Assembly: GCF_037975245.1 (NCBI RefSeq)
Contig: NC_092569.1
Coordinates: 10,976,501-11,040,500, forward strand
Direction of reading: 5' to 3'
Source: Apostichopus japonicus
Lineage: Eukaryota; Echinodermata; Holothuroidea; Aspidochirotida; Stichopodidae
DNA: 64,000 bases
In this document: positions 15,601-60,006 of the stretch, piece after piece
Position numbering within the stretch: the stretch's first letter is position 1
Layout of the letters: every line of letters begins with the position of its first letter
The notes under the pieces: model-generated
Databases searched by the model: none
The model's input: only the letters and a program-made list of their open reading frames with translations
What the model was told of the DNA's origin: nothing
Position numbers and translations under genes: made by a program

Positions 15601-18600
15601 GTCATCTTCATGAATCAGCCGATTATCGCTGCAGTTAACACGGGAAGTACAGTCAGAATTGACAAATGATTCACCGTCCTGTCGTGGAAAATATACTTTG
15701 ACAATTTCAGTTTATCAAAAACCCATTTGCTGAATCACTTGTTACTAATGAATTTAAGTCAAATTGCCATGACCAGTGAGTTTTCAAGTAATACTCATTA
15801 ATAGTTCATAGAATAATATATGCAAAGAGTAACCTGAAAGATTTAGCGAAGAAGGAACATCGTAAATATAAGTAATACAGCATGTGGAAATGAGGAATTG
15901 ACTAGTGCTTCCATACCATTATTAGCTTATGGAAGAAGTATACAAAATCAGCATATATCTTTATAGCAGCTTCAATGAGAAAAAAAACAAACTTCTCACT
16001 GATCCATTGACTTACATTAAGCACACTTCCCTTTTCTTGTACAAAGCATCCACACTGACTTTCAGGTATGCAGTCCTCTCCTTGTATCATATAACCGTCT
16101 GGACAGATGCATCTGCCTGATTCCATAGATGCTAAGGGGATACACGTATTTGGTTCGGTACAACGTCTCTCACATGTACTGTTAGCAAACTTCGTATTCG
16201 ATGGACACCACTCAATAAATGGACCTGGGTGAAGGTAAAAGAAAAAAATAATCCTAAAATTGACTTGGTGGTTTGACGCATTGAAATTATTAAATGGTCT
16301 AGAAATAATGTCGTAATCGCTGCCAATAAACCCTTTATCATCCACAGTAGAGACAGTGGGTGGGGAGGGGGGGGGGGTGAAAAGATTAACTCGTATTAAA
16401 ATTATGGTAAGCAACCCTTTTTGACAACGACAAGGACATTGTTAAATTCTATTATTACGTTAAGTTTAATAGTTCTATAAATATATTCTAATAAATATAT
16501 GTTTCAATAATTCTACATGAAACTCTAAAAGAAACCTTGAACAATTGAAGAGAAACGTTGCACGTACCTAACAGAGTTTTAATGAAAACATGAAATAAGA
16601 TTGAAAATCGTGCTTCGTTGAGATAAAACCTACATGTAAATACAGGACCTTTACCTGCATTGCCACCTTCGTCTCCAAGACTTTGAATAGAATATTGGCT
16701 CCATTCACCAACGATACGAAAATCGTCGTAGGTCACGTGATACGAGTGCCCTGCAGCATTCGTTAAGTCCAAACGAAGTTGATACTTCTTTTGATTTGTT
16801 AGGTGAGCGATTTTTTCATTTCCTAACCAAAATTCACTTCCCAAAAATCCAAAACCGTGCTTGTAATCTAACCAATTCCGATTAAAGTTGATGAATCCAT
16901 TCGTCCGTCGCTGTATTACCTGTCGTAATAAAAATGAAGGTAGGTCTATGTTCATATCTTCCACAATGGAGAGAATTTGGTTTTCTTTTGACGGTTGGAA
17001 CTGATTGTTTGGCAAAATTGCTGAAAATTTTCTGAGTATTTTTGCCAAAAACCAAATCTTCATAGGATTTTTCCAACGCAAAGACTTGATAATTTCAAGT
17101 TTCCATGATATTTGCAAATCCATCTGGCAACAGCAGAAAAGATTATCCACAGAACAAAATAATATTTCTACAACAAAGATATATTTTAATGAAAATTCTT
17201 AGTACGGAGAACCTTGTCTGAATTAAGTTAACATTCTAAATTTATCAGGTTTCAAGATTTTGATTAACATAATTAATGCTTTTGAACAGCATCAACTTCG
17301 TTTACTACGTTGGTATGACATTTTAATGCTGCTTAGTGAAGTACAGTCAAAATTGTGTCTCCTGTTGTTCGAAGAGGAACGCAAAAAAATGTCAGTATTA
17401 AGTTCCTGGTTGTTTTAGGTATGCGTTGATCTATTTTATTGACTGATGCAGCATTATTTTAAAGTTTTGAAACTATTTATAAGCTTGGCTAACGTTTAAC
17501 TTACCGTCCATCCATCACTGTCTAAGTCGTTATCACAGTACACTTCGAACGCCTCTGGGAAACCAGCAGGTTTGATTTTGTAGACACCAGATGCATTTTG
17601 GGTATTTGAACATGTATTGAGGATTTCGTGGCAATCTTTCGGGTACTCGGTTGATGGAAATATAAAGTAAGATAAACCTATTTCAGGAAATAACGGATAA
17701 AAGCAACATGAACTTTCTCTTTTTCTTCTGCAGCCATCAGTATCTATGGATGTATAGGTTACTTTTTCGATTATAAACCTGTAAATGTTTAATTGTAATA
17801 ATGTCTACCAGCATTTCTGCTAAAAAAGAGTCATCCAATTGTTTAATTTAATTTTGTATAGGGTCCTTTTTTTCATGTAGGTCTTTAACTTCATCAAAAC
17901 AATTACCCAGTTAGTTGACACGCCGATTACTCAGCGGGCCAATCAAATCACCTTAACAGCATTTAAAAAGATCGAGAAAGCTATAGTGTCTGTCATTGAT
18001 TTACATTTCCACCTTTCCTCAACAATTTGTATTAAATGTTATAACAATTTTTGGTTCCAATTTCTGATATTTAATTTATCCTGAAGATCTACATTAATGA
18101 ACAAACGTAACGATGATTTCAAATACGAATACTATCACCTGGAATCGTAAAAGGGTCTTTTGAATCATTGTAAGCTAAAGTGTAAGGAATAAACTTATAG
18201 TCAATATCAAATGGTAACTTACTCGATGATTGATCTGTGACGTCAGGAGAAGCCTGCATATAAGACAATGAACGTATATACTGATCTTTATATTCTCACT
18301 GCACATAAATATCAATGAGATGTTCGAGTATAAGATATGTGCAATCATGTGTTCCTTTCACTTTATTAAATATTAAAGCATTAATTCTGTGACGAAGTGC
18401 GTAAAATTGTCATTACTATTGAGATGATCGCAAATTCTAAATACATAATCTAAACAAGACAACAGTTTTTACGGCAACAACTAACGTATAGAAGGTCGGG
18501 TTAAAAAGCCATTTCTGGAACAAAGAACCGTTTTTTTTTCTTAAAGCAACATATTAGACAAAGTGTTCGGTCGTCTCAAAGATCATATTCACGTCATCAG

Positions 18601-20428
18601 ATTCAGGTATCTTCAGAATAACAACAATTGCCAAAAACATATTTTCTTTGTATATTCCCATGTCGGTATATGATTTTCCTTTTTGTAGGAAACATTTGAT
18701 ATTTGTGAGCAGCACATTCTACGATTGCTTTTCTTTCTCTCTCAAGACAATGTTGTAATAGGCAAATGTATTACTTTTCGTTTCGATTCGATTTGATGAT
18801 GTACAATGCAGAGCTTAGACGAAAGTATTTGATGCGAGATGACTATTACCGCTCTATAGTTTATATTTCATTTCACTCATTTTTGTTATCATTTCATTGT
18901 TTTCTGAAGCAACATTTTCATTCTGTTTGGAAGTTGCCAGATCAGTTTCTCACTACAGTCTCCCAACAAACTAAGGCAAAGTGTCAATAACGTTCGACAG
19001 GAAAACGTAATAAAATTAAATAGACATTCTTGGCACGAGATCCTATCGCAGTGAACAAAGACTTTGTAGGAATTAAAAGCAGATGCTCAATCCCTATGTT
19101 CTGGAAAAGATAATAATGAATTTCATTAGATCGTATGAACTTAATTCAGTACCATTATCTGGTGTCTGGATATAAAATGGAAATGCTGTTTTGTATGAAC
19201 GGAATCAACGCTTTGCCGCTTAGACAATTCCTTTGTATAGATAAAAATCGCTCTGGCAAGTATAAGTGCACATTGATCATTTATTTGTTAAATCTAATGT
19301 CTCAATATTTTCATTATTCACCAAATTGCGATATTTTCTGCGAGCATGAAATGAAGTTAAACCGACAATGTGAACTCATTGGCTACTGAAGTGTAGCTTT
19401 ATGTAACATTACAAATGTGTTTGGTATGTCCAGAACAGAGCGGTATAAATCTACAATATACATAAATTGCTAGCGAGTGAACCTCAATATGTAATCATCA
19501 CATTATCATCAACTTATGCGTTAACCATGTATTTGTAAAGTTCTTAGAACACAACTTGGCTCAGTGACCCCTGATGTGAAGCTTTACTTAAAGTTAAAAA
19601 TCTGCTATATCAATAGAAAAGGAAAGCTGTATAAATCTACAATAAACATAAACTTGAAGATAACCCCCTAAATTTTACCATCACGTATACAACTATAGTT
19701 AACGTTTCTCATGTTCTTAGAACATAATGCTGTAGGCAATTTTTCTGTGACCATACGAGCCATATCTGTAAGAGCGATTACGGAGATGGGTTTAACACAA
19801 GGATGTGTAAGTGAATTGGTAACCAAAAAAGGCCGAGGTAAAAGATGATGCTGATATTTGATATTTTAACCACAGATTTTTTGTCATAGCATAACTGAAA
19901 GCCTGTGAAGCTTTGCAGATTGTCAGATATATCATTTTAATAAACAAGAAAAATAATTCGTTCTTGAATCAGAATTAGTTTGGTCTTGTGTCTGATTAAT
20001 TCTAAAGTTATATAACGGACGTACTAGGTGTTTAATACATTACTTCGACAGTTTCCTTAATCTGCATTGGATTTCTAGCTTTATCATAAAATAGCATAAA
20101 GCGTCGTCAATGTTAACAGTATATTTTAAAAATGAGTTTCTTGACACATAACCAACATGAGGTGTATAGTGTTAGGATTTGGTATTATCATATCTTTCTA
20201 AATGCAAAATGTTATTCTCAAACAAGGTTACGATCAATATAACTAATTCGGATACCCAAAGGAAACATGGTTAAGTAAAGAATTTAGAACACGAAATATT
20301 TCGTTCAGCTATAGTCCCTATATATATATATATATATATGTAAATATAATATATGTATATATATATATGTTTATATATATATATAAAAATATATAAATAT
20401 AAATGTATATATATTTATATATAAATAT

Positions 20429-20494
<66 letters not shown>

Positions 20495-20572
20495 TATTTT
20501 AATGAAAATCGTAATGAGTTGGAACAGTGTAAAAACTTCCAGCCTACACCGGGACTCGATCCCGGGCCTCCC

Positions 20573-20638
<66 letters not shown>

Positions 20639-21047
20639 TATATTTTAATGAAAATCGTAATGAGTTGGAACAGTGTAAAAACTTCCAGCCTACACCGGGA
20701 TTCGATCCCGGGCCTCCCGCTTGGTACGCGGACACCCTAACCAACTATGCCATGGACGCTGATTGTTATGTCCAGAGGTTCGGAATCGGTAAGGAAGGTT
20801 GTTACAAACATTGCAGTGATAATAAATGCACATTGTTAGATTCAATTTTGAAAGTTTACCCAAGATGATCTTTGTTGTAAAAAAATAACGGAGTTGTTAA
20901 ATCTTTGTATGCAGTCCATAGCCTAAAGACATGTCACCCAACCAGACCATTTTTTGAGAAACTTACCGTTATTAATGCAAGGACATTGCATCCCACCAAC
21001 AATGTGAAAAAGTTGACGCAGAAAAGTTCCCTTCTTTGGTTCTCCAT
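12689..21047 (-). CDS. Secreted two-headed fibrinogen-related protein with insertion in FReD2, unit A minus gene
   Basis: Exons in transcript order: 21047-20967, 18253-18223, 17677-17505, 16919-16655, 16224-16016, 15678-15361, 14509-14248, 12993-12689 (stop 12691-12689). They sum to 1,644 nt, giving 547 residues with no internal stop. Residues 1-27 form a signal peptide whose ATG is the first in the exon. A polar linker follows (about 28-50). FReD1 (about 51-184) lacks its C-terminal third. A TIL-like module spans 190-241, an EGF-like motif 282-310, and a complete FReD2 317-545. FReD2 keeps RDRDND, GAWWY and NLNG. Between GAWWY (480-484) and the conserved HC (506-507) lie about 20 extra residues including Cys495; Cys472 and Cys534 are also extra. 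The TIL module has two fewer cysteines than in the plus genes. It converges on the plus gene ending at 8610. Probably a secreted recognition protein; function inferred from family only. Confidence 0.9.
14640..14905 (+). repeat. Dispersed repeat R2, unit A copy 2, inside an intron of the minus gene
   Basis: Homologous to 11,912-12,200. It lies in the intron between exons 6 and 7. Confidence 0.7.
15105..15120. repeat. Poly-C run in an intron of the unit A minus gene
   Basis: Roughly 14 consecutive C. The unit B counterpart (about 46,985) lacks it and reads CACAAAAACAAAA. A G-run of similar kind is at 16,366-16,378 and is kept in unit B. Confidence 0.85.
20320..20640. repeat. Compound AT microsatellite, unit A
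   Basis: Several (TA)n blocks separated by short unique pieces and by a partial SINE copy at 20,494-20,576. The unit B counterpart (52,175-52,215) is much shorter. Confidence 0.95.
20494..20576 (-). mobile_element. Partial second copy of the SINE
   Basis: Repeats the body and T-arm region of the 20,641-20,765 copy (CCGGGACTCGATCCCGGG here) and then stops at an AT tract. The tRNA-like 5' head is missing. Probably made by slippage or unequal exchange in the AT tract. Confidence 0.65.
20641..20765 (-). mobile_element. tRNA-derived SINE with AT tail
   Basis: On the minus strand the head resembles a tRNA. It has an A-box-like TGGCATAGTTGG and a B-box-like GATCGAATCC inside a perfect 5-bp T-stem (CCGGG/CCCGG). 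A 5-bp anticodon stem closes a 7-base loop with U33 and the triplet ACC. Acceptor and D stems do not pair well, so it is not a working tRNA gene. A short body follows, then the AT tract as tail. Absent from the same place in unit B. Confidence 0.65.
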
Positions 21048-24211: not shown

Positions 24212-24354
24212 TGTTAATACAAAATTATATATTTCTTTGTAGTGTTTACTTGTTTTGCTAACTCCCTGGCAGTAATAACAGCTTCCTTATCAAAGTTTGT
24301 GGGATCAGAGAGAGCTTTATTATTTGTCCTGTTTGATTTTGTTCAAACCCTTAC

Positions 24355-29837: not shown

Positions 29838-32800
29838 ATGATCAGCAAATTGTGCAAAGTTTTTGAAGTTTTGCTTTTCTTTTGGACAACAGGCTGTCTC
29901 TTTTCACAACGAGTGGTGAGTTTTAGAACTTTGATATTTTGATACTTTGTTATTACCGCTCCCATTATTTAATCCAATTAGCTTGACGTGTTATTTAGCT
30001 GCAGTTAATTTTTAAAGCTGCAGTCACCATGGTAGAGTATACCAATTTATGTAAGTAACTTTTTCCCTTTCCAGCAGTAAAAAGTGATGTTGTTGTATTT
30101 CTAATTAAAACTTCTTAGGTTTTAAAAGTTGTAATTATTAATCCATGCACTGGATAATAATTTGAGGAGAATTATTCTGGCCCATACTTTTTATTTTAAA
30201 TGCAATATTACCTTAAGTTCGTGAAAAACTATGAAAACTAGAAGAAAATACAACAAATTAAATAAATTTGTCAACAGTTTATTATCATTTCAAGGCAAAT
30301 ATGTCCTTGATATTATATTTATATATCATTGAATCCTCTAGATCAAAGTCATAAACTTTCATTTTATAGAAATTAATAATTAATATTCTTGTCAACCTTG
30401 TGTAAGAATCAATATCAAATGTTAAAGATTGAAATATATTGAAATATAGTAGTTTCCCAAATTTATGTGAATGAAAATAAAATTCTACATGAAGTGACAA
30501 TCGATCATAATTATGCCAATTTAAATACCTCAAATTGACGGATAAAAGGATAAGCTCCCATTAAGTAGTATTAATTAAATTATTAAACGATTCATTCAAA
30601 TCTGTTTATATACCAAAACTTTATTTTATGATATATGCTGCCTTTAAGATAACAATTGAAAAAAAGTCAAACAAGAACAACGTATTTTTGCATTTACAAG
30701 TAGTTTATTTCGAATTTTACCAAAGCATTTAATTTCCTTGTTAACAAATCAAATGTACCTTCTTTATATATGAAAGCGTCTAACAAACTAATTGAAAATA
30801 ACAAGCTATTGCATCCCCCGATATATAACAGTGGTATTCACACTGTTTTAAATGTTTTATTTAATATCATTAACGATCGTGGAGCTTAGCAAAATAATCA
30901 TATGTTAAATTCTATCACTGAATCAAACTGTAATCTCTATTCTACATAAATTTAATTAGTATACGCTTTAAGCCATTGAATTTTAGTAACAACTTCCAGT
31001 TCCAAATAATATGCCAATTATCAAAAGCTATTACATCTCATCATCTTAATATTGTGTTTCTTACCTCTTGCTTCACTTTCAAAATTTAAAAACATGGGAA
31101 CATTTAGAGCCAACATAAATTAGTAACTTTATACCTAGATCTGCTAGTTAAAGTATGATATACCTGTGTCAATTCATTCAAATATGAAATACGTTTATAT
31201 AACAATAATTAATTTTAATGAAATATGCTGCCTTTTAAGATTACAATTGGAAAAAAGTCGGAAAAGTCAAACAAGGAACAACGTACCTTTGCAGTTACAA
31301 TTTTATTGTTTAGAATATTATCGAAGCATTAAATTTCCGTGTTACCAAATCTTATGTATGTAGCGTCTTTATCATCAAAAGTTTTTTTCAAGTTTACAAA
31401 ACTGACTTTTATTAAATCGTGTTTAATCTCCAAACGGTGTTATGTCACTCTCTTTCTAAATTTATTCGTTTAAACGATAAATCGTATAATAACATTTTGG
31501 CGCAACACCTAGACGATGAAACTAATATTGCCGTCATGTTTAGCGCTAACTGAAAATTTATTCAAAAGAGAATATAAAAATGCAAAGTTTATAGGAAGGC
31601 GTCAAACAAATTATTTGAAAATAGCAAGCTATTGCACCCCCTCCCACCCGTATACATATTCACACAACTTTTTAAATGTTTTATTTAATATAATATAAAT
31701 TTAATTAAAAAAATAATAATATGCCAATGATCAAAAGCTATCACAACTCATCATCTTACTATTGTGTTTCTTGCCTTCTGCTTCACTTTCAAAATTTTCG
31801 AAATATGGGAACCTTTAGAGCCAAATTAAATTAGTGACGTGATACCTAGACCTGCTAGTTAACGTAAGATATACCTGTGTCAGGCTCTGTTATGTCCAAG
31901 TCTTCTTAATCGGAATAAAAAGTTCGTTTTATCTCTGATTCTTTACATCACAATTTAATTGAAATCAGTTTCTTGTTTTTAAAAACTTAAGCAATCCAAT
32001 TACGATCTCTTCTCTGGAAACCTGGATTTGGGATTTGAGAGGATATGATTCATACAGAACATGCACTTTATCTCCACATTTCCTGTTTTATTTTGTTATA
32101 AAAATGTTAATATAATATCTACTTGCTGGGATCAATAGTTTACGTTAAAGTATTGTTTAATAGTTAGAAGCAGAAACAATCAAGTCGAAAACAACATTTT
32201 GTGTGGACTAGAAAGGTATGTTGAAAATATCTTTCGTGCATTTATCCAAAGTAGTAACAAATATTCTAATGGGGGTTTGTCTGATCGTATTCAACTGTTA
32301 TCTGTCGTAAATTTTGAAAAATTGCAAATCATAATTCCTTATACACACCTAGAAAAAAACGTTAAGTTGAATTCATTTTTAGTTTCGGTTGCTCATGAAT
32401 TATGAATAGTATCGCTCTTTAAAGATATGATTCGTAAATGATTAAACTGTTATAAGCAGATGTAACGTTAATCGATACATTGAGAAAACCATGAGCATTT
32501 TTTCTCTTCTTTGCTATTTTATAAGACGTCAACCCTTTCTTCAGTAGTCAACAAACTAAAAAGACAAAGTCGGTTTGCCTTAAGTCATGTGACATACACC
32601 GTCTCCAGTACATAACTTTTAATTTTTTGTTCAAATTTAACTATTACTATTTTAATCAATATTGAATTGGAACTTCAAATGACGCAGTTCTTTCCTACCA
32701 AAATATAGTCTTGTGTAAACAAAATGATTTATCTAATCGAAGTAGGAAATAAACTCTTTCAGGACGGTATTGGCTCTGAGTCGTTAGCAGGGCATGATAA

Positions 32801-35800
32801 CGGATCAATGTGTAAAATGAGAGAAATTGAGATTTATATCTTTCAATCAGTCGAAATACTGCACAAGCAAATTCTGTTTCACATCTCATTTTTTTTTTGG
32901 CCTAGGAGCTGACCCTGTAGTTACTGTTGTACCAGTTTCCATGTTTGAAATGTTTAAATCCATGTTTAAATTCACATTTTATTGAGATTTTGCTGTACGG
33001 TCGTAAAAAATTGCTGAAATATTAGTAAAGGAGCTTTCCTATGACAGAAAGTCTTACGCACATTTCAAGGACGAAATATTTGACCGTATATTAGTAATAA
33101 CCCCTTTTCCATATTTTTGTATGCTATTTATTTAATCATGATATAAATTCAATTCATTCAGTTTTCGCACTGCAGTATATTGGTCGAAGCTGATTTCACG
33201 GAACACATGTTAAAACAAATGTTTGTGTTTTTTACTTCTATGCTATTGTTGGTAATGTCTGCTTGCACCGTATAACACTAAATCAAAGTATCTGGTAGAA
33301 TTTCATTCAGTCATTCCCGCTCTGCGAGTATTTTCGTAATTTTAAATCGATCTCTTACAGAGTAAAATCAATCACAAGTCTGGAAAATAATCGGGATATT
33401 ATCATATTATAATAGTGAATTATAACTCAATATTAAAGCCCCCCACCCCAAATGAAAGCAGAAAGTTTGTTTGCAGTGTATTTTCTACCTCGTAACACAG
33501 AAAATTATCACCCAATTGTTGCCAAGTCTCTGTTACAAAAACCTGCATCGGGAAATCCAGCTGATAGCTGTGTATGCTTTGTTGTTTTTTGAACAACAAT
33601 TGCATTTCCGTACTTTGGTATTAATTCATAGGTACGTATTTTAAAAATCGGCTATAACAATACCTTAACATATTTCAGTTTTAAATTTTGTTTTTATAAA
33701 ATAAAGTCTTCTTTACTTTCGGGCATAGCGTATGTGCTTGGTAAATGTGTAATTTACTCTATTGTTGACAAAGTCTGCTGGAAACGTGTAGAAAATATGT
33801 TAAAAGAATCTGCTCCAACTTGTTTCAATTTTTCCTCACTGTAAATTTTTGCAAACAGAGATCTTATAGAGTGACAAAACTCACTAGTTTGCAAAGTCAA
33901 GATATTCTAACGGAGTTAATTTCCCATTCAATTATATTTTACCAGGAAGGTATAAGAATTATTTGTTCAAGAAATAGATTTTCCTGTTTGGTATAGTTAA
34001 TAGTGTTGCATCATCAACAAAAAAAGGAACAAATTCTTAACTTCATTGTACAAAGAAAAATAAATGACATGATGTTGGATTCTTCTCGTGGTCCAGAAGA
34101 TAATACTTCTTTTTAATTATTTTTGAACAAAAATTATACCGAGGAAAAGATGATGACTTTGTATCTTTAAATTGTTAACAAAATTTTATTTTAAATTAAT
34201 ACAGCTGAATATTTATTGGGAAGCAAATGGGGCGTGTTTCTAAGCCATGGTGGTTTTGTAACTAAACTGTGTCTATAGGCCTTGGTGATTTGAAGCTAAA
34301 ACATTTTTTTAGTTGTTATAGTTTTGTAATTAAAGTGATAAGAGCACGGAGGCAGTTGCCTCATACATCGAATACTATGTACAAATATTGTCTACCCATT
34401 TCGCGTCCTGTTTGCTAATTTAGGGTTCTTGTTGATGTAATCATAAACATACTCTACTCAGCCGCCTGGTTCGCTTCTGATAAAGTTTGTTACTTCAATG
34501 AGCTATAATTAAAAATTCTCCAAGATACAGTAAGTACTAACACGATCTAGTTTCTCACAGCTTAATAACTTCTGTGGATTATTTTGCTTATTTGTGATTG
34601 CTATCTCAAATAAACACGGTTTGAAATACAAAACTTAAACACAACACGGAAAATCTTGTCATGGACTATTGTCCCTCAAATTAAAATATTGTTTTTCGTG
34701 ACTTTATATTTACTGCCAATGCAAGTATTGTGATTTTTTTGTCACAACTTCCCAAAAGTGATTTTCGTAGCGCATTTTCTTTTTTTATATTTGTGCCAAC
34801 CAGGATATTATAGCTAAATGATACTTCGTTTATGTTAAAGAGGCATATATATATATATATATCAAAGTACTAGATAGAATATCTACGTTAGAGTAATTGC
34901 CTCTACCTAGATGTGTTCATCTAATGGCTTTATAACGCTTTAACGTCAAATATGCGAAGTATTTTTTTTTAATTTTACACAACGTCATTTATATCTAGGT
35001 TTATTAGGGTGATAGTTATGTTGCTGAATAGTCATTCGTTTCAAATGTTATACTCTCCGTTAAGTTTGTGTATTTGGTATCAAAGGAAAGTTTAATATTC
35101 AGAGGTTAAATGGATAAACATTTGTTAAACGAATTTACAATTCGAAACAATAACATGGTTAAGTACCGTCTCTGGGGTATATTACATTGTTACACTGTTA
35201 ACTAGAAAGTCCAACTCGTTCCACCAGCCTACTCAACTCCCAGATCGTGTTCGCATGTAGCATTAAGTGGCGCCAAATATAGGCGAGATAGGCACTAATG
35301 TATTGTCACCAATCCAGCCCCACCCCTTCCAATACACACACATTCACCACCCCCTGCACTGCAGCATATCAGTCATTTAAAATACTGAGTAAAGTATACA
35401 TCACCTCAGTTACACATGAAAAAGTAAATTTGCCAATTAACTGCGCTGTTACATTTTGTATTAATTTCCATTTGACAGGATGCTCTACAGACAATCAATG
35501 ACAATACTGGTGATAATAGTGTAGGTAAGTGAACTTTGTGGCCTCTAATCTTATGTAAATGAGTCGTCAAAATATGACGTCATGATTAAATAACATAACA
35601 ATTATTCGAATATGTGGATTAACGTTATAATTATGATGTTATTTCCTTATCAGTTGTCATTAACGTTCAGTGATTAAAGTTAGGTCAGTTAACTATGCAG
35701 GCTGTAAATAAATCTTCATGTACGACGTCATAAATAAATATCACTAGAATTGTTTGAATACATGGATTTATTTGATAATTATAATGTTACTTCCTGTCAA

Positions 35801-38800
35801 TCGTTATTAACATCCAGTGATCATTCTTTTTAATGTTTTATACAAATGTACTTTCGTTTTCGTTTGATTCGAAAGTTGTGTGTTCTTCCAATGATAAGTT
35901 GGATATCAGCTAAAACAGACAATGTAGCGTATTAAATACATTAATAATAGAATACGTTAATATTTAGAATGATCGCATGCTATTTGGACATGACAATTAA
36001 ATTTTATTTAATCTTCACTGTTAATCAACTCACAAAAGCAAACCAATTTACTTCGTTGGACGTACTAGGTTCGTCGTTTTTCTTCTACCAACAATCGAAT
36101 TACCCGAGAGATTGCAGAGAAGTCCAGGAGCAATGTTCATCACATAACTCTACTGGTGTCTTCATGATCAAACCAGATGGCTATCTAGAACCTTTTGAGG
36201 TTTACTGTGATAACACAGACAGTTCTGGTGGATGGACGGTAGGTCTTTACAGTCTGTTTACTTTACATGTTTCTTTTTCTCTTTTCCCTCTCCCTATTAT
36301 TTCCCATTTCTCCGGGTAAACTCTCCGGGTGATACCACAATAAGTAGATGCGCATACATACTACACAGTGTGCATATCCCAATATTAAGCATTATAGACT
36401 ATCTTAGCCAAGAGAATGGTTTCTAGTGACGTATATTCACAATAAACACATCAATTACTTTGAATTCATTTTCTAAATCATTTATATTGTTAGGTAATAC
36501 AACGTCGTATTGACGGTTCCATCGACTTCAGCCGTGACTGGGACAGCTACAAGTCTGGCTTCGGCTTTTTATCTCAGGAATTCTGGCTCGGTAATGAGAA
36601 GATTTCTCACTTGACCAATCAAAAGAAGTATCAATTGGTGATTGAGATGACGTCATCAAATGGTTCCTTAATCCGGGTTTCTTACGACAACTTCCGCATT
36701 AGTGATGAGTTCAGCAACTTCAAGTTGTTCAGTCTCGGACATTTTTCTGGAAGAACAGGTAAGTTATATCAACATTTCCGTTTAATATCCTTATTATTTG
36801 TTCCCTTTAGCTCAGTTATCAGGTCAGATGACCTTTAGTTCACCATGGTTCGCAGTTTGGAATTCATATAGCTATATCAGGCGCGTATCCAGAGGCCTGC
36901 TATGACACCCCACTCCCCCCGCCCCCCCCTTCAGCATCACAAAAAAAACGATTATTGGCACATCCTTACGTAGACACCTAGATGTTAGACATAATGTATA
37001 ACCTCGAAACTTTGTTCTTTTCCTGGGAGAGTGTCCGCAATCCTCCTACATGGGAATCAGTTTTAACGACCCATGGACCACACTCCCTTCTTATTTACTT
37101 CGTGGATCTGCCCATGTTTAACCAATCACCAGTGTAACTTGTACCTTCCATATGACATTTTTATTACTATTATGTGAGACAATAACTTGAGGAAATTACT
37201 GCTTCTTTTGTAGGCTGACAACTAATGGATTCAGTTTTGTCAGGCAAACAGTTGTCACGTATGTTTAGAGCTTATATGAGAACAATAACAATCTATGAAC
37301 ATGTCGCTAGAGAAAATTTACACCTGGCCATGTTTTTTTTTCCGGATGGAGTATGAAGTAATGTGGGCTTTTAACACAAGTTTTACAACATGTTCATTAC
37401 AAATAAAATACACAACGAAGTTTATATTACCAGTATGTTTCAATTTTGAGGTAATTTCCTAAAACTACCGACCTGTTTATTCCTGCAGACGTTATAACCC
37501 TTTGCCCCTACAACATGGTCTATATAAACTGCAGTAACTCTTGTCAGCGGACTTGTGGTGCTCCAGAAATGTGTCAGGATGGGGTCTGTAATGAAGCCGA
37601 AGCCTGTGTTTGTTCCGATGGCTACTTCATGAAGGGATCAAACTGTGTACCTCAAAAACAGTGTGGATGTTACGAATCAGAGGGACAAACAGTTATTCCA
37701 GTAAGTTGCTTTGTTTTTATTCATTTGTCTTAATTTTGGGCAGTCAAATCTGGAACTGTATGTCAAAGATTATTCACTGTCACAGTTTTCAACAACTCTT
37801 CTACAAACAACAGCATAGTTGAAGACTTTTTCTAGATAACCAGTCACTTTTAATGCTGTCTTTTATAATGAATGCAATATAAGCGCAATCTAACTCCAAT
37901 AAAAAATATATATTTTTGAGTTCATTTAACTATACGGTTATAGGAATACCTGTCAAATTATAGTATACTCCACGTAGGGAATTCTAGTGCTTACATAGAG
38001 ACATTACAATACAGAACAGTATTAACCGTGGATGATAAAAAACACAACATCAGGGTTACATGTAATCTGTAAAAACTAAAGTAAAGAATTATTTTGTGTT
38101 TCAGGAAGGTGGGTCTTACGTGAACCCTGGATGTACAAGAAAAGGTGTTTGTACCAACGGACAGATCACGTGGGATGAAGAATATGCATGCAGTCCTAAC
38201 GCAGTTTGTGACGTCAGGGACAACATAAGACAATGCTATTGTACTGGTGGCTACAGAGGGGATGGTGAAAATTGCACGAGACTACCTAGAGATTGTCAGG
38301 AAATTTACGAGGATGGATCCGAGGATAACGATATATACAGAATCAAACCAACCGGGTGGACCGGGGAGGCCTTTGAGGTTTACTGCAACATGACTGACGG
38401 AGGAGGATGGACGGTAAGTCATTCCAATAATTAAAACCACATTAATCACACTTAATCGGTAATACACTGTATTAAACTACACTTTAGTCATTGTACCACA
38501 ATGAACACACAAAAATACACTACATTGTACTGTAAAAATTCACTAACTTACCCTAGCTGCACGTTAGAAAAATACAGTACATTACATTGCACTACAAAGC
38601 AATATTCTACATAAAGTACAAAAGTGATAGAGTATACCTTTTGGTTGACTGTAGTAGAATAGGTATCTTTCATACAAGTGCAAATCACATGTTAGTTTAA
38701 TGACCGTTATTGATACAAGGCTATACATAAACATGGATAATCGTTTGTAATGGATGCACTTTAAACTACAGTTACCATGTATCAAAGCAATATCTAAATA

Positions 38801-40473
38801 ATGGAAATTTCTTTAATGAAAATGTTTTAACGAGATTTTCCTTTATCAGTTCCTTTAAATTTGTTTAAGTCAACGTCCTTCAACTCTAATGTTTCTTAAA
38901 AAGTTGACAATTTAGTTAATCGCTTGCTATATTTGATCATGACAAAGTATTCCTCTTATTCACACTTTTAAACAAAGGTTTTTCAGCGTCGTGTGGATGG
39001 AACCGAGGATTTCTACCTCGGATGGGACAGCTACAAACAAGGTTTTGGAGAATTAGACCACGAGTTTTGGCTTGGAAATGATAAGCTTTCTATCTTGACC
39101 AATCAAAAGAGATATGAAATCAGGATTGATCTTGTGCACAGTGATGGTACTCCGTACTATGCCAAGTTTGACAACTTCCGGATTAATGACGAAAGCGATA
39201 AATATCGGTTATCTCAACTTGGAACCTACAGTGGAACAGCGGGTTTGTTATACAATTTATTTGGTTACATACACATCCTTTAGATATCTGCACAATTCTA
39301 CAACTATAAATGCTTCTACGGTCTGTACGTAGTTAACTGTTGTTTGTTATGTGTTGTCTTGGGAATACCACATTATAAGGTTTCATAGATATATTTGACC
39401 GAAGACTACAATAAGTAAATGCGTAAATGCTTTGCAGTGATAATGCAATGATATATTAACATGATGAAGAGTATAAGGATCGATTTATTCATATTTCTCT
39501 TCTTGAGATTTGTATCTTACCTTTCATAACTCACTAAAACAAAGACAAAATAAGACTTCCAACCCAATTAAACATCAACAGCAAAGTAAATCATTCTCAT
39601 AACATGTTCTTGTCCAATTTCATACCTACACATATACACCTCTGACATAGACTGACCTATGCACACACGTCCACGCAACAATCATGCACCATGTATACAA
39701 TACTTTCTTCGAATATACAAAATACAACATATATCAGAAGGGCAAAACCATGGCAACAATGTTTGAGTTTGTGTCATTTAACTTACACCAAACATGCCGT
39801 ATAAGTCACCATTACTTACTACGGTTTATTCATGAACACAGTATGAACGTATTTGAGACACCTTATTATACGTCAATTCTATAAATGGGATTAACTACTT
39901 CATCTTGCTTTTTATGTATTTTTTTCTTTTCTAGTCATTAGATATTACAGCAGGTGGAATTTCAGCAGTACCGAAATATAATTTTGGTATAAAATAAAAA
40001 CAAAACTAATAGAAAGAAACTAAGGATAATAAAAGATAACATTTCATTTGCAATATGTGGAATAATGAATCATTAAAGTTAATTCTTTAGTGAAACTCTT
40101 TATAAATAAAACTTTTACTTCAAGCAACATCAATATATCTGTCTTTCAGTGATATTACATAGAATGTTAATGTATATGTTCTTTGTTCTTCTATACAGAC
40201 TCTCGCAGCAACCCTGATGGTAGAGCTCTTCGATATCACCTCAACTACCAGTTCACTACCAAAGACAGTGACAACGATGCTTATGGTTCCAACTGTGCGG
40301 TTTATTATCACGGTGCCTGGTGGTACAATAATTGTGAATATTCCAACCTCAATGGAAACTACCATGCCGGCCAAGGTAGTTATACCAGTCCTTATTGGAA
40401 TTACTTACCCGGCAGTGATTACAACCTCAAATATTCAGAAATGAAGATTCGTCCCTTTCCGCAGGTAGTTTGA
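29838..40473 (+). CDS. Secreted two-headed fibrinogen-related protein, complete plus gene of the unit A/B junction
   Basis: Exons: 29838-29915, 35479-35524, 36069-36238, 36494-36758, 37489-37700, 38105-38413, 38978-39242, 40199-40473. They sum to 1,620 nt, giving 539 residues with one open frame. Exon 1 encodes a 26-residue signal peptide (start MISKLCK, hydrophobic VLLFFW core) and is 5.6 kb from exon 2. FReD1 covers about 55-187 and has no C-terminal exon. TIL covers 192-247, with a full set of ten paired-type cysteines plus the closing CGC. An EGF-like motif covers 286-314. FReD2 covers 319-539, with a DSDND calcium loop, GAWWYNNC and NLNG. Sequons NCS, NCT and NMT suggest N-glycosylation. 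Intron phases 0,1,0,1,0,0,1 match the minus genes, so both gene types descend from one ancestor. The start was chosen by the signal peptide, phase fit, and conservation at 59938. Confidence 0.9.
29916..35478 (+). other. Intron 1 of the unit A/B plus gene
   Basis: 5.6 kb, AT-rich, spanning the unit A/B boundary. It contains the R3 tandem duplication and, in its second half, the counterpart of 1-3,600. A (TA)n tract lies near 34,848-34,863. I see no further exon. Confidence 0.75.
30629..31885 (+). repeat. Nested tandem duplication R3 (~590-670 bp, two copies), unit A
   Basis: The sequence beginning ATATGCTGCCTTT occurs near 30,635 and again near 31,224. Long stretches match in order afterwards, including AATAATATGCCAATKATCAAAAGC and the CTAGAYCTGCTAGTTAA segment. 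The second copy has lost some internal sequence. Confidence 0.85.
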
Positions 40474-44545: not shown

Positions 44546-47500
44546 TCAAACTGGTCGTATCCTCATTTTTGTACCCGCGATACCGCACTCGTTCCCAGAA
44601 AGTTTATACCAGAAGATTCCGCGGTAGTCGCTGTACTGGTAGTCTCCGTTGAGGTTAGCATAAGTGCAATGGCGGAAATATCCCTTTCCATACCATTTAA
44701 AGCAATGATTGTTATCATTATGATAACGATGAGGGTACCACCAGGCACCTTGATGCCTCTGTGCACAGTTACAATCATCCGTACCATCGTTGTCCCTATC
44801 GCGCGTGCTGAACGGATCTCCGGAATTCGAGCCCATAGAGTTATAACCTGAAAGGATGGAAATAAGGACGTATTTAATCAGCATTGCATACATAGGGAAC
44901 TGAAAAACTCAAACCATAACATGGTAGGAATTTCTTGTCAGTTAAACATCTTCTAGAATTCATTTAATAACCGTATTTAACCTTTAATTTATATGTAAAC
45001 ATGCTTGCAATTATTCAATACATGCTTGTATGTGAATATTATATTGATTTTGTTTAAGTGCAAAAAAAAGTATGGTTATTTATAGTGAGAGGAGGGGGAT
45101 TGGGGTGGTGGGTGTGGATAAATGGATATAATTTATCGCCACTTCGATTTGAAAACTATACGTATTTATTCTTTCTGTAAGCCAGGTTCGTACATTAAGG
45201 TTTTCCAATATACTCAATTCATCGGAAGTGAAAGAAATATGCGATTAGATGAATTTGTTTAAGGCCGAATCTAAGGGGATAAGATGCATCATTCAGGAAG
45301 TCTTTCCGTCAACGAGATTATAACTACCCAATTGTGCATTAGTTCAAAACTTGTTTTCGCCTTTGAGAGACACATTCACCAATTTAACATCACATCATAT
45401 ATGGTGTCAATATCATCACTTCCATATGTGTGGTGTGCATGAGTCACATTCTATTAAATTATGTACATCATTGTATTTGTTCAGATTAATGATATCATAG
45501 TAAAGTGATTAATGAGGTGAAGAGGTCGTGATCCCGCCAAACCACGCAACTCTATCGCTTATCACAGTAACACTTCAAGCGATATTTGGTTAATAGTGAT
45601 ATTGCCCACATCTATTACAGCAAATTCAGTTGTTGTGTCAAGTTTAAAACGTTTAAAGTGTTCTGAAATTCCAGTTTTTCAGATTCGAACAGTTGAGGTC
45701 ATCATTGTTCGTGTCTTTTCGATCAGCAAGTGGATTGAATAGCATTAGGCTCAGTTTTTTTTTAATTATGATATATTTAATAACTGCATCTTCCAATGAG
45801 TGAGTAATGACAAACGTGTGGCTGGTCAAATTATATTAAACTTGGTTGCATTTTTGTTTCCCATTCCCTTCACAAAGTTTAGCCACGATGTCTTGGAGGT
45901 TTATTAAAATCACTATTAAAGACAATACTGATGTAGTAGATTACGAGTAACAACAAGACGTGGTTATATATTATATGTATATATGTTTTGTTTCACTTAG
46001 CAACTTCTGTTTCTCGAGCATTTTTCTGTGGATCATGTGGAGTGTGTTGTGCAATGTAAACCAAACCAAGAACGAAAGTTATCAAACCAAAGCCTTATAA
46101 AGTAAATGTTGCAAAATACATCAACCTGCATTTCCAGAGAACGAGCCTAAAGAGAGCGTATATTTGTCATCCTCATCTCCAATGCTGAATCTGGAGTAGA
46201 GGGCGTAGTACTGTGAACCAGCTGAATCTGTCAGATCCACCTTAAGTTGGTATGTCTTCTGAGTTGTATGGTCGTGAATCTTGTCGTTACCAAGCCAGTG
46301 ATCACCGCTTAGACTTCCAAACCCGTTCCTGTACGCATTCCAACCACGATAGAAGTTAACTGAACCAGACCTCCTTCGCTGGAGAACCTAGAAATATGTA
46401 AAGGTATAAATATGATATAAAGTTAAATATCGTTCCAATGCTGTTTTCGTCATTGTTTCCTCGTACACTTTTATCTGATATATTATTTATTATATCTACC
46501 TAGTGCCCAGCAGGTATTTTTTTCAAAACCCGATGGGTGGCAACGCACTCACACATTTTAAGGAATTTGGTTCGCAACCCGTTTTAAACGTAACACATGT
46601 GTTGTAAATACGTAGTAACGATAAGGAAATCGTATAATATTGTACAAAAGAAAATAAGAAGGTAAATTCATGTATCGCCACATATCTAAAATGGCGCAAA
46701 TGAATGGGAATGTAATTATTTTAATGAGAAAGTTCACGAAATGTTTATAGCCAGTAAACAATTTCTGCCACAGAGTGTTGCTCTTAATGGTGTCTCAGAC
46801 CATTGAACATGTTTCTCTCGTGAAGAAAGCTAGGCCAGCCAGTACCGTTATGTTTAGATACTGATATTTGTGTCTAGAAGCTGTTTCTTGTAAGACGACA
46901 CCAGACTTACGCCACTGAGAGCTAGTAGCGAAAAAAAAAAATCGTAATTGCATTGGACATCTCTCGCTCAATAAATACACTCAGCACAAAAACAAAATCT
47001 CAAATTCGTTATGTGAAATGATCTTTCCGGTGAGTGTTAAGTTCAATAGATATTCAACGTCAGACATGGTGATGCACAGTCGAATTGATATATCGACAAA
47101 ATTGTCCTGTTTAATCGAGAAGAAGCTTCGTAGTGCCTTTTTTATATTTAAACCTGTACTGCCCGTGGGCCGCGTTCTTCGATCAAGGCGGTTAGAAGGT
47201 ATCACTCTCTTGTGAAAAGTGAAGACTTACAGTCCATCCTCCTCCGTCTGTTGACATCTCACAGTAGACTTGGAAGCCAGAGTCCTCCCAGCCAGTAGGA
47301 TAGATGGTATAAACCCCATCGGTATGGATCCCTGTATTGTATATCTCGTAGCAATCCTTCAGGGGTCTTTTCCGAATACACGTTATCCCATCTCCTTCAA
47401 ATCTATCGTTGCAAATACATCTTTGCACACCGTCTCTCTCCTGACACGTTGCATCGTCACTACACCGGTAGTCATCTTCATGAATCAGCCGATTATCGCT

Positions 47501-50500
47501 GCAGTTAACACGGGAAGTACAGTCAGAATTGACAAATGATTCACCGTCCTGTCGTGGAAAATATACTTTGACAATTTCAGTTTATCAAAAACCCATTTGC
47601 TGAATCACTTGTTACTAATGAATTTAAGTCAAATTGCCATGACCAGTGAGTTTTCAAGTAATACTCATTAATAGTTCATAGAATAATATATGCAAAGAGT
47701 AACTTGAAAGATTTAGCGAAGAAGGAACATCGTATATATAAGTAATACAGCATGTGGAAATGAGGAATTGACTAGTGCTTCCATACCATTATTAGCTTAT
47801 GGAAGAAGTATACAAAATCAGCATATATCTTTATAGCAGCTTCAATGAGAAAAAAACAAACTTCTCACTGATCCATTGACTTACATTAAGCACACTTCCC
47901 TTTTCTTGTACAAAGCATCCACACTGACTTTCAGGTATGCAGTCCTCTCCTTGTATCATATAACCGTCTGGACAGATGCATCTGCCTGATTCCATAGATG
48001 CTGAAGGGATACACGTATTTGGTTCGGTACAACGTCTCTCACATGTACTGTTAGCAAACTTCGTATTCGATGGACACCACTCAATAAATGGACCTGGGTG
48101 AAGGTAAAAGAAAAAAATAATCCTAAAATTGACTTGGTGGTTTGACGCATTGAAATTATTAAATGGTCTAGAAATGATGTCGTAATCGCTGCCAATAAAC
48201 CCTTTATCACCCACAGTAGAGACAGTGGGTGGGGAGGGGGGGGGGTGAAAAGATTAACTCGTATTAAAATTATGGTAAGCAACCCTTTTTGACAACGACA
48301 AGGACATTGTTAGATTCTATTATTACGTTAAGTTTAATAGTTCTATAAATATATTCTAATAAATATATGTTTCAATAATTCTACCTGAAACTCTAAAAGA
48401 AACCTTGAACAGTTGAAGAGAAACGTTGCACGTACCTAACAGAGTTTTAATGAAAACATGAAATAAGATTGAAAATCGTGCTTCGTTGAGATAAAACCTA
48501 CATGCTAAAACAGGACCTTTACCTGCATTGCCACCTTCGTCTCCAAGACTTTGAATAGAATATTGGCTCCATTCACCAACGATACGAAAATCGTCGTAGG
48601 TCACGTGATACGAGTGCCCTGAAGCATTCGTAAAGTCCAAACGAAGTTGATACTTCTTTTGATTTGTTAGGTGAGCGATTTTTTCATTTCCTAACCAAAA
48701 TTCACTTCCCAAAAATCCAAAACCGTGCTTGTAATCTAACCAATTCCGATTAAAGTTGATGAATCCATTCGTCCGTCGCTGTATTACCTGTCGTAATAAA
48801 AATGAATGTAGGTCTATGTTCATATCTTCACAATGGAGAGAATTTGGTTTTCTTTTGACGGTTGGAACTGATTGGCAAAATTGCTGAAAATTTTCTGAGT
48901 ATTTTTGCCAAAAACCAAATCTTCATAGGATTTTTCCAACGCAAAGACTTGATAATTTCAAGTTTCCATGATATTTGCAAATCCATCTGGCAACAGCAGA
49001 AAAGATTATCCACAGAACAAAATAATATTTCTACAACAAAGATATATTTTAATGAAAATTCTTAGTACGCAGAACTTTGTCTGAATTAAGTTAACATTCT
49101 AAATTTATCAGGTTTCAAGATTTTGATTAACATAATGCTTTTGAACAGCATCAACTTCGTTTACTACGTTGGTATGACATTTTAATGCTGCTTAGTGAAG
49201 TACAGTCAAAATTGTGTCTCCTGTTGTTCGAAGAGGAACGCAAAAAATGTCAGTATTAAAGTTCCTGGTTGTTTTAGGTATCCGTTGATCTATTTTATTG
49301 ACTGATGCAGCATTATTTTTAAGTTTTGAAACTATTTATAAGCTTGGCTAACGTTTAACTTACCGTCCATCCACCACTGTCTAAGTCGTTATCACAGTAC
49401 ACTTCGAACGCCTCTGGGAAACCAGCAGGTTTGATTTTGTAGACACCAGATGCATTTTGGGTATTTGAACATGTATTGAGGATTTCGTGGCAATCTTTCG
49501 GGTTCTCGGTTGATGGAAATATAAAGTAAGATAAACCTATTTCAGGAAATAACGGATAAAAGTAACATGAACTTTCTCTTTTTCTTCTGCAGCCATCAGT
49601 ATCTATGGATGTATAGGTTACTTTTTCGATTATAAACCTGTAAATGTTTAATTGTAATAATGTCTACCAGCATTTCTGCTAAGAAAGAGTCATCCAATTG
49701 TTTAATTTAATTTTGTATAGGGTCCTTTTTTTCATGTAGGTCTTTAACTTCATCAAAACAATTACCCAGTTAGTTGACACGCCGATTACTCAGCGGGCCA
49801 ATCAAATCACCTTAACAGCATTTAAAAAGATCGAGAAAGCTATAGTGTCTGTCATTGATTTACATTTCCACCTTTCCTCAACAATTTGTATTAAATGTTA
49901 TAACAATTTTTGGTTCCAATTTCTGATATTTAATTTATCCTAAAGATCTACATTAATGAACAAACGTAACGATGATTTCAAATACGAATACTATCACCTG
50001 GAATCGTAAAAGGGTCTTTTGAATCATTGTAAGCTAAAGTGTAAGGAAAAAACTTATAGTCAATATCAAATGGTAACTTACTCGATGATTGATCTGTGAC
50101 GTCAGGAGAAGCCTGCATATAAGACAATGAACGTATATACTGATCTTTATATTCTCACTGCACATCAATATCAATGAGATGTTCGAGTATAAGATATGTG
50201 CAATCATGTGTTCCTTTCACTTTATTAAATATTAAAGCATTAATTCTGTGACGAAGTGCGTAAAATTGTCATTACTATTGAGATGATCGCAAATTCTAAA
50301 TACATAATCTAAACAAAACAATAGTTTTTACGGCAACAACTAACGTATAGAAGGTCGGGTTAAAAAGCCATTTCTGGAACAAAGAACCGTTTTTTTTTCT
50401 TTAAGCAACATATTAGACAAAGTGTTCGGTCGTCTCAAAGATCATATTCACGTTATCAGATTCAGGTATCTTCAGAATAACAACAATTGCCAAAAACATA

Positions 50501-52173
50501 TTTTCTTTGTCTATTCCCATGTCGGTATATGATTTTCCTTTTTGTAGGAAACATTTGATATTTGTGAGCAGCACATTCTACGATTGCTTTTCTTTCTCTC
50601 TCAAGACAATGTTGTAATAGGCAAGTGTATTACTTTTCGTTTCGATTCGATTTGATGATGTACAATGCAGAGCTTACACGAAAGTATTTGATGCGAGATG
50701 ACTATTATCGCTCTATAGTTTATATTTCATTTCACTCATTTTTGTTATCATTTCATTGTTTTCTGAAGCAACATTTTCATTCTGTTTGGAAGTTGCCAGG
50801 GAAGTTTCTCACTACAGTCTCCCAACAAACTAAGGCAAAGTGTCAATAACGTTCGACAGAAAACGTAATAAAATTAAATAGACATTCTTGGCACGAGATC
50901 CTATCGCAGTGAACAAAGACTTTGTAGGAATTAAAAACAGATGCTCAATCCCTATGTTCTGGAAAAGATAATAATGAATTTTATTAGATCGCATGAATTT
51001 AACTCAGTACCATTATCTGGTATTTGGATATAAAATGGAAATGCTGGTTCGTATGAACGGAATCAACGCTTAGCCGCATGGACAAGTCATTTGTATAGAT
51101 AAATATCGCTCTGGCAAGTATAAGTGCACATTGATCATTTATTTGTTAAATCTAATGTCTTAATCTTTTCATTATTTACCAAATTGCGATATTTTCTGCG
51201 AGCATGAAATGAAGTTATGCCGATAATGTGAACTCATTGGCTACTGATGTGTAGCTTTATGTAACATTACAAATGTGTTTGGTATGTCCAGAACAGAGCG
51301 GTCAATTATTAAAATATACATAAATTGCAATGGAGTGAACCTCAATATGTAATCATCACATTGTCATCAACTTATGCGTTTACTATGTATTTGTAAAGTT
51401 CTTAGAACACAACTCGACTCAGTGACCCCTGATGTGTAGCTTTACTTAAAGTTAAATATCTGCTATATCAATAGGAAAGGAAATCTGTATAAATCGACAA
51501 TAAACTTGAAGATAACCCCCTAAATTTTACCACCACGTATACAACTATAGTTAACGTTTCTCATGTTCTTAGAACACAATGCTGCAGGCAATTTTTCTGT
51601 GACCTTACGAGCCATATCTGTAAGAGCGATTACGGAGATGGGTTTAACACAAGGATGTGTAAGTGAATTGGTAACCAAAAAGGCCGAGGTAAAAGATGAT
51701 GCTGATATTTGGTATTTTAACCACAGATTTTTGTCGTAGCATAACTGAAAGCCTGTGAAGCTTTGCAGATTGTCAGTATCATTTTGTTAAACCAGAAAAA
51801 TGATTCGTTCTTGAATCAGAATAAGTTTGGTCTTGTGTGTGATTAATTCTAAAGTTATATAACGGACGTCCTAGGTGTTTAATGCATTACTTCGACAGTT
51901 TCCTTAATCTGCATTGGATTTTTAACTTTATCATAAAATAGTATAAAGCGTCGTCAACGTTAACAGTAATATTTTAAAGAATGAGTTTCTTGACACATAA
52001 CCAACATGAGGTGTATAGTGTACTGTTGGGATATGGTATTATCATATCTTTCTTATAACGCAAAATGTTATTCTCAAACAAGGTTACAATGAAAATAACT
52101 CACCTGGATACCCAAAGGAAACATGGTTAAGTAAAGAATTTAGAACACGAAATATTTCGTTCAGCTATAGTCC

Positions 52174-52218
<45 letters not shown>

Positions 52219-59937: not shown

Positions 59938-60006
59938 ATGATCAGCAAATTGTGCAAAGTTTTTCTTTTCTTTTGGACAACAGGCTGTCTCTTTTCACAA
60001 CGAGTG
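59938..60006 (+). CDS. Exon 1 (signal peptide) of a fifth fibrinogen-related plus gene, rest beyond the window
   Basis: This exon encodes 23 residues and ends in GTG before a GTGAGT donor, as at 29838-29915. It is nearly identical to that exon except for a 9-nt in-frame difference that shortens the hydrophobic core. If spacing is as in unit B, exon 2 would lie about 5.5 kb downstream, past the window end. Calling it a gene start is an inference from the tandem structure. Confidence 0.75.

Follow-up and report, generated by a model that had tools for sequence, protein, structure and literature searches.

Results

Four genes for two-headed FReD proteins

In a 64,000-nucleotide stretch of Apostichopus japonicus DNA (the window) we found four genes whose predicted proteins carry a truncated FReD (head 1), then TIL, TILa and EGF-like modules and finally a complete FReD (head 2). 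As judged from sequence, they are rather probably members of the FREP expansion with a fused architecture, in which head 2 would be the binding end and the part before it, from head 1 to EGF, a stalk or oligomerisation segment.

Gene P-B (29838-40473, plus strand) is as the first-pass annotation had described it: its eight exons are all bounded by AG/GT sites, and the spliced frame is open for 539 amino acids and a stop, in the order putative signal peptide, linker, truncated FReD (a and b), TIL, TILa/EGF and complete FReD (a, b and c) (Table 1). Close paralogues also have this linker exon upstream, and in some diverged paralogues an exon like it can be made out by eye. The plan is indeed common to all four window genes; the M-type proteins have 547 (copy A) and 546 residues (copy B), and the N termini of P-B, M-A and M-B are hydrophobic, as judged by eye. 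The four genes form two tandem units of about 32 kb, 95.3% identical over 18 kb, and therefore represent two types (P and M), not four independent cases. We discarded a duplicated-haplotype assembly artefact as the sole cause, since the units differ by 4.7% over these 18 kb and the plan recurs elsewhere on C9. A signal-peptide exon homologue of the next tandem unit lies near the window end; its domain exons would be those of locus L009, beyond the window.

Table 1. Exons of the window genes (positions within the window; signal peptides are putative)
Gene	Feature	Position	Strand	Remarks
P-A	linker exon	3608..3653	+	signal-peptide exon would precede window start
P-A	FReD1-a 4199-4368, FReD1-b 4641-4905	4199..4905	+	
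P-A	TIL	5640..5851	+	one Cys to Ser
P-A	TILa/EGF/FReD2-a 6256-6564, FReD2-b 7115-7379, FReD2-c 8336-8610	6256..8610	+	
M-A	signal peptide 21047-20967, linker 18253-18223, FReD1-a 17677-17505, FReD1-b 16919-16655, TIL 16224-16016, TILa/EGF/FReD2-a 15678-15361, FReD2-b 14509-14248, FReD2-c 12993-12689	12689..21047	-	all splice sites AG/GT; frame open
P-B	exon 1, signal peptide MISKLCKVFEVLLFFWTTGCLFSQRV	29838..29915	+	ATG, hydrophobic core, gtgagt donor; exits in phase 0
P-B	exon 2, 46-nt linker	35479..35524	+	phase 0 to 1; tgacag/gtaagt sites
P-B	exon 3, FReD1-a	36069..36238	+	phase 1 to 0; bears third Cys
P-B	exon 4, FReD1-b	36494..36758	+	phase 0 to 1; truncated head ends here
P-B	exon 5, TIL	37489..37700	+	phase 1 to 0; Pfam TIL match, splice sites
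P-B	exon 6, TILa + EGF-like + FReD2-a in a single exon	38105..38413	+	phase 0 to 0
P-B	exon 7, FReD2-b	38978..39242	+	phase 0 to 1
P-B	exon 8, FReD2-c and stop	40199..40473	+	Ca-site and pocket motifs
M-B	signal peptide 52829-52749, linker 50112-50082, FReD1-a 49536-49364, FReD1-b 48787-48523, TIL 48093-47885, TILa/EGF/FReD2-a 47548-47231, FReD2-b 46387-46126, FReD2-c 44847-44546	44546..52829	-	all splice sites AG/GT; frame open
Next unit	signal-peptide exon homologue MISKLCKVFLFFWTTGCLFSQRV	59938..60006	+	gtgagt follows

Domain profiles and the joint between head 1 and TIL

Pfam was run on a 533-residue draft of P-B, which used an upstream open-frame start and held one extra Gly per phase-1 joint, and on residues 1-318 of the corrected protein. 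Fibrinogen_C was matched in two stretches of the draft; head 1 matches only profile positions 2-137 of 221, where the match ends, and head 2 is a full-length match (2-220 of 221). TIL scored 28.1 bits in the draft and 29.1 in the first 318 residues, above the cut-off of 24.5, TILa 26.2 and 27.1, about its cut-off of 27, and EGF_3 23.3 in the draft, below its cut-off of 28.5. The TIL scores of the M type (20.1) and of the chain type described below (21.2) lie under the Pfam cut-off with the full model length matched, and TILa reached 24.4 in the M type and 33.1 in L027. The M-type TIL exon has two Cys fewer than that of the P type, and AlphaFold gave it, by itself, a pLDDT of 52. TIL-TILa modules (PF01826, PF12714) occur in mucin/VWF-type proteins, with which the P type and L027 have the series TIL, TILa, EGF-like in common; here, however, FReDs flank TIL-TILa, and a scan of two proteins at E 0.001 matched neither vWD nor C8.

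In P-B, FReD-b exits and TIL enters in phase 1, the same phase in which FReD-b passes to FReD-c in head 2, so that TIL does enter where FReD-c would have joined, as first proposed. With both window c exons as queries (E <= 20), none of 14 genes gave a c exon in its b1-TIL intron, and the first FReD indeed stops after its second exon. The b1-TIL introns of these genes span 241-735 bp, the shortest being those of L015 (241) and L014 (248), and the phase-1 joint has clean splice sites in 12 of 14 genes examined. Loss of the c exon removes the Ca/ligand (P) subdomain of head 1 and probably also takes a core strand; in the structure reported for Angptl3, the C-terminal strand of the FReD packs between two B-sheet strands (PMC5928061). 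The hydrophobic N-terminal stretch SSFFFYQQ was dropped as a donor of the missing strand, since the plain FReDs L008/L033 and L030 carry a similar stretch and chain heads 2-4 come directly after EGF. The third Cys of head 1, present in 15 of 15 two-headed loci, was dropped as a mark of truncation, since the plain FReDs L033, L030 and L031 have it and chain heads 2 and 4 do not.

Relatives in the same genome

Is the two-headed order confined to the window? It is common to 15 loci, namely the window genes and 11 more (L009-L017, L019, L029). L019 has in-frame stops in FReD2-b and FReD2-c and unclean junctions, and in L016 two junctions are off the expected place; such copies may be decaying. A chain gene (C9:10.07 Mb) carries four truncated heads, then one full head; FReD-b and TIL lie within one uninterrupted exon in all four copies, and the chain ends with b and c. 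The plain genes L008/L033 (one gene) and L030 begin alike, with SYFFYQ...YPRDC, and are both entered in phase 1; a c exon, with one stop, is present in L033, and the stretch covered for L030 ends short of c. In L027 and L025 the order is TIL-TILa/EGF-FReD, with TIL entered in phase 1 after Thr-rich exons. Thr/Ser-rich mucin-like stretches occur in these two and in L018, L020 and L021, all five having no first head within the stretch covered. The pairing of TIL with an adjoining FReD, at first taken as unusual, is therefore wider in this genome.

Our tree was midpoint-rooted for drawing only and does not discriminate among the TIL-bearing genes as source of head 2. The 15 head-1 pieces and three of the four truncated chain heads share one side of a branch (100/96). 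Truncated heads adjoin the plain FReDs L033 and L030 of another array (96/89) and head 2 lies elsewhere; the tree gives no support to head 1 as an internal duplicate of head 2.

The dN/dS of a1+b1 is 0.10-0.21 in seven diverged pairs (dS 0.65-1.53). For FReD2-b the ratio is defined in four of these pairs, at 0.06-0.15, and for TIL it is 0.24-0.39, the highest among the compared parts in all seven. Head 1 is under purifying selection. The first-pass argument from conservation to selection is upheld by these ratios and the 15 loci.

The predicted ligand site of head 2

Against the PDB, head 2 aligned over nearly its full length (best match 4m7f, E 1.9e-55). FIBCD1 is described with Ca residues D393/D395, the P-subdomain Cys pair C401-C414 and pocket residues Y405, N413, H415 and Y431 (PMC3908420). 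Carrying this numbering over by alignment, we found equivalents of D393/D395, C401-C414, Y405, N413 and Y431 in head 2 of P-B; H415 is replaced by Glu, which speaks against a firm assignment of ligand type. A432 (Thr in head 2) and W443 are presumably also FIBCD1 pocket residues. By its motifs, head 2 is most likely a Ca-dependent, N-acetyl-type ligand-binding end. FIBCD1, ficolins and tachylectin 5A bear a single complete FReD on a coiled-coil, collagen or membrane stalk. Head 2 resembles them in that the Ca residues and some of the S1 pocket are conserved, whereas the stalk here would consist of a truncated FReD, TIL, TILa and EGF.

Discussion

The joint, we infer, is better accounted for by two FReD-type genes having fused at phase-1 introns than by a TIL exon having been inserted, since the TIL-TILa/EGF-FReD genes also enter TIL in phase 1. 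A break in the phase-1 b/c intron of a plain FReD gene would have been joined to one in the phase-1 intron ahead of TIL in a TIL-TILa/EGF-FReD gene, exon c being lost at the joint; in a related gene, the block of truncated head, TIL, TILa and EGF would have been made four-fold before one full head. The genome contains genes of both putative parental types. The earlier proposal that a TIL exon replaced the Ca/ligand subdomain is thus right about the missing c exon, but TIL was probably not a newcomer, given its phase-1 entry in L027 and L025. Together with TIL, TILa and EGF, the truncated head would most likely act as a disulfide-rich stalk or oligomerisation segment, holding or multiplying binding heads. 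The motifs would fit a lectin-like protein in which one head binds and the other is structural, possibly with a role in defence or repair.

FReD exons sit in dense arrays here, and exons 1-4 and 5-8 could accordingly belong to two neighbouring genes. We reject this reading: introns of 241 and 248 bp leave scant room for a poly-A site, a promoter and a signal-peptide exon, the chain gene has b and TIL as one exon, and the phase-1 joint is cleanly spliced in most genes examined. Hardly more credible is head 1 as a functionless, decaying remnant. In favour of this, head 1 is short of the ligand subdomain and probably of a core strand, and L019 contains stops, albeit in head 2. Head 1 is, however, under purifying selection similar to that on FReD2-b, and the order is retained in two diverged types and the chain gene.

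Some members of the TIL family are serine protease inhibitors, and the high dN/dS of TIL is compatible with a changing target, so that the FReD heads might bring an inhibitor to a surface. We regard this as improbable. The reactive loop of such inhibitors sits between the fifth and sixth Cys, where the P type has just four residues (QDGV); the M-type exon is two Cys short, window copy P-A has lost a TIL Cys, and in the TIL-bearing genes read TIL is followed by TILa/EGF, a succession also present in gel-forming matrix proteins. A somewhat better chance, though still a minor one, goes to building blocks of matrix, mucus or adhesive, cross-linked by the heads, in place of immune lectins. The mucin-like stretches of five relatives favour it, and vWD, C8 and TIL are described as a common combination in aquatic adhesive proteins, including those of sea stars and urchins (PMC8621496). 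The two proteins scanned yielded no such vWD or C8 match, however, and head 2 keeps its Ca and pocket motifs.

We return to fused lectin-like members of a known expansion. FREPs are reported as the family with the greatest expansion in A. japonicus, in tandem clusters mainly on one linkage group (PMC5638244): the species is the same, and the expanded family and tandem clusters are as here. In the accessible text of that account TIL has no match, and neither two heads nor a truncated FReD is described. Molluscan FREPs, as reported, likewise combine FReD with further extracellular modules in an invertebrate family that has expanded, but there the modules are IgSF domains (PMC7588048). Among the literature matches listed, as titles and abstract openings with few subscription journals and hence a weak test, none describes FReD-TIL or P-less FReD proteins. 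The FREP expansion was already known; the two-headed FReD-TIL architecture seems to be a new form within it.

In summary, we put forward more tentatively that an A+B FReD without the P subdomain and the C-terminal core strand, welded to TIL, is an autonomous structural module of single origin, selected and capable of tandem repetition (n=1 in the window genes, n=4 in the chain gene at C9:10.07 Mb), which would yield multivalent fibrinogen-type lectins; the open B sheet would have to be completed by TIL or by a partner chain. A selected FReD without its C-terminal strand would be a stable variant, so far overlooked, of a very common fold, or would point to strand donation by a neighbouring module or partner. 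If true, this would show how a recognition family that has expanded in an invertebrate noted for its regeneration gains valency through gene fusion and module repetition.

RESULTS

In a genome of 671,581,487 bases in 35 contigs, the window lies on contig C9 (C9:10976501-11040500) and includes two units in tandem, each some 32 kb long and 95.3% identical to the other over 18 kb, together with the start of a third. Each unit carries one P-type gene on the forward strand and one M-type gene on the reverse strand. P-B runs from its ATG through eight exons with consensus splice sites and counts 539 codons up to the stop; M-A and M-B, likewise of eight exons, encode 547 and 546 aa. The linker exon and six open domain exons of P-A lie within the window, and its first exon lies upstream. 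The signal exon ends in phase 0 and is followed by the linker (0 to 1), a1 (1 to 0), b1 (0 to 1), TIL (1 to 0), TILa/EGF/a2 (0 to 0), b2 (0 to 1) and c2, which reaches the stop. Against the Pfam profile, the match of head 1 to Fibrinogen_C ends at position 137 of 221 and TIL starts after it, which bears out the first-pass annotation of a truncated FReD directly before TIL. Its further claim, that TIL enters in phase 1 where exon c would join, also holds: b1 exits in phase 1, as b2 does before c2.

The window contains further features (Table). In the TIL of P-A, Ser replaces one conserved Cys (RTSGAPEMC), and this copy has probably lost one disulfide. A 288-aa open frame with a cysteine/histidine pattern resembling C2H2, without a Pfam match at E 0.01, is possibly a mobile-element gene. 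A tRNA-like match (Rfam tRNA, 36.9 bits) next to a tract of TA-rich repeats is perhaps the head of a SINE.

Table. Positions of the features discussed
Feature	Position	Strand
P-B, ATG	window 29838	+
P-A, TIL	window 5640-5851	+
288-aa open frame	window 23420-24286	-
tRNA-like match	window 20687-20759	-
Chain gene (L034+L035+L036)	C9:10,068,776 to about 10,084,930, within G000:C9:10067001-10092500	
Similar b-TIL exon	C9:9,999,685	
Similar b-TIL exons	C9:10,030,340-10,035,561	
Array with L033 and L030	C9 16.2-16.7 Mb	
L018	C9 15.3 Mb	
L020	C9 11.5 Mb	
L021	C9 12.8 Mb	
Dense FReD array	C9 29.3-35.8 Mb	
L001, intron-less FReD	G000:C22:3278301-3278942	

Using both c exons of the window as queries and E values up to 20, we found no exon c between b1 and TIL in any of 14 two-headed genes, whose b1-TIL introns measure 241 to 735 bp. 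Clean AG/GT sites were seen at the examined junctions of 12 of the 14 (ten loci, in which the check began downstream of the 5' end of a1, and both M genes). Two junctions of L016 are absent from the expected place; L019 has several junctions off the expected place, and its b2 and c2 contain in-frame stops. A fifteenth two-headed locus, L029, whose b1-TIL intron lay outside the 14-gene search, shows the same exon order with a partial TILa match.

Only the best candidates were scored, and all abundance figures are thus lower bounds. The P-type TIL exon alone gave at least 23 listed matches, all on C9, and head 1 was present in all 11 loci read among them. At least 12 b exons with 79% identity or more to M-type b1 were listed, 11 of them with an M-type TIL listed 0.40-0.47 kb downstream; full reading of these 12 covers the two window genes. 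The FReD exon matches listed lie mostly on C9, at about 4-36 Mb, and include a dense array whose b exons for the most part share 60-67% identity with M-type b1. The best-scoring match of one of these listings is L001, which encodes a complete FReD (223 aa) in a single intron-free open frame and may be an old retrocopy or represent an intron-less type.

A chain gene elsewhere on C9 shows, independently of splice prediction, b continuing into TIL without c inside one exon. It starts with an exon a and a single uninterrupted exon of FReD-b and TIL, continues with three copies, about 98% identical to each other, of a 2.61-kb unit of two exons (TILa+EGF+FReD-a and FReD-b+TIL), and ends with TILa+EGF+a, b and a divergent c with the C-terminus MKIRP. 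Spliced at AG/GT sites, exons 1-8 give an uninterrupted frame; the remaining three were read singly, their joints being judged by eye. One predicted protein thereby holds five FReD heads, four of them truncated. Truncated heads 2-4 are chimeric, since their exon a resembles the final complete head and their exon b resembles head 1. Similar b-TIL exons among the matches listed probably belong to further chain genes.

DISCUSSION

How did the b1-TIL joint arise? A tree was built from 53 FReD a+b pieces over 137 columns and given a midpoint root purely for display; it omits L006, L008, which is the same gene as L033, L032, which is the same as L007, and chain head 3. In it, 15 head-1 pieces and chain heads 1, 2 and 4 fall on one side of a branch (support 100/96), adjoined (96/89) by the plain FReD genes L033 and L030, the b piece of the latter cut off by the locus end. 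Head-2 pieces are placed away from them; 16 open forks and long branches limit finer reading. In these plain genes (L008/L033 and L030) exon a is entered in phase 1 and starts with SYFFYQ...YPRDC, resembling the start of head 1; a c exon, containing one stop, is present in L033. Of ten loci read that have no first head within the 10 kb fetched, two, L027 (C1) and L025 (C22), carry TIL, in the order TIL-TILa/EGF-FReD and after Thr-rich phase 1-1 mini-exons (GKTMQESEEPTTTVTTEPQGTTL type; three seen in L027, one in L025); the TIL of L025 is spread over two frames. Candidates for both parental gene types therefore exist, and we infer that a fusion of the two at phase-1 introns would account for the joint.

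In L018, L020 and L021, a short cysteine piece takes the place of TIL before TILa/EGF-FReD, and L022 and L024 have a similar piece. Upstream of it the first three carry long Ser/Thr-rich tandem repeats (DTTVSSVETTTQSTTSPP type), which are mucin-like stalks on FReD; L018 has a second TILa-like exon.

From a passage on FReD structure (Angptl3, PMC5928061), with a mapping onto the exons that we infer, loss of exon c should remove the calcium/ligand subdomain and the C-terminal strand normally packed between two strands of the B sheet. At one alignment site all 18 truncated heads read [VIL][ST]YD, and the ten others displayed, of 35 other tree pieces, have A or G and then K, E, Q or L; the motif may record an adaptation to loss of the subdomain, or may reflect descent alone. 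A third Cys, found in head 1 of all 15 two-headed loci and also in plain FReDs, is a candidate for an interchain bond.

By Nei-Gojobori count, dN/dS in seven pairs with dS of 0.65-1.53 was 0.10-0.21 for a1+b1, 0.24-0.39 for TIL and, where defined (four of the seven), 0.06-0.15 for b2; the pairs are non-independent, sharing genes, and the b1 end of L016 is uncertain by a few codons. Both window pairs are too alike for use (P-A/P-B a1+b1, 0.66 at dS 0.04), and a1+b1 dS is saturated in the P-M and P-L019 comparisons.

FREP expansion is already known. A limited test of the open literature, by titles and abstract starts, found no description of FReD-TIL or of FReDs lacking the calcium/ligand subdomain; within that test, the two-headed FReD-TIL architecture is a variant of the known expansion for which no description was found.

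The top PDB match of head 2 is FIBCD1 (4m7f, E 1.9e-55). Judged by the FIBCD1 residues in a portion of PMC3908420, with which a portion of PMC10825690 agrees for C414, H415 and Y431, P-B head 2 keeps the calcium residues D393 and D395, the cysteines C401 and C414, and Y405, N413 and Y431, but has Glu for H415. Head 2 is plausibly calcium-bound and ligand-binding. The predicted secreted protein would likely have a single ligand-binding head, at its C terminus, with the head-1/TIL/TILa/EGF part likely serving as a disulfide-rich spacer or joining segment. According to a section of PMC5638244, FREPs are the most expanded family of A. japonicus, mainly on LG02, and are raised in visceral regeneration; an excerpt of PMC2702171 describes a FReD transcript induced by LPS in Holothuria glaberrima. 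By analogy with the behaviour of the wider FREP family and with this transcript, the two-headed proteins may have a role in defence or regeneration.
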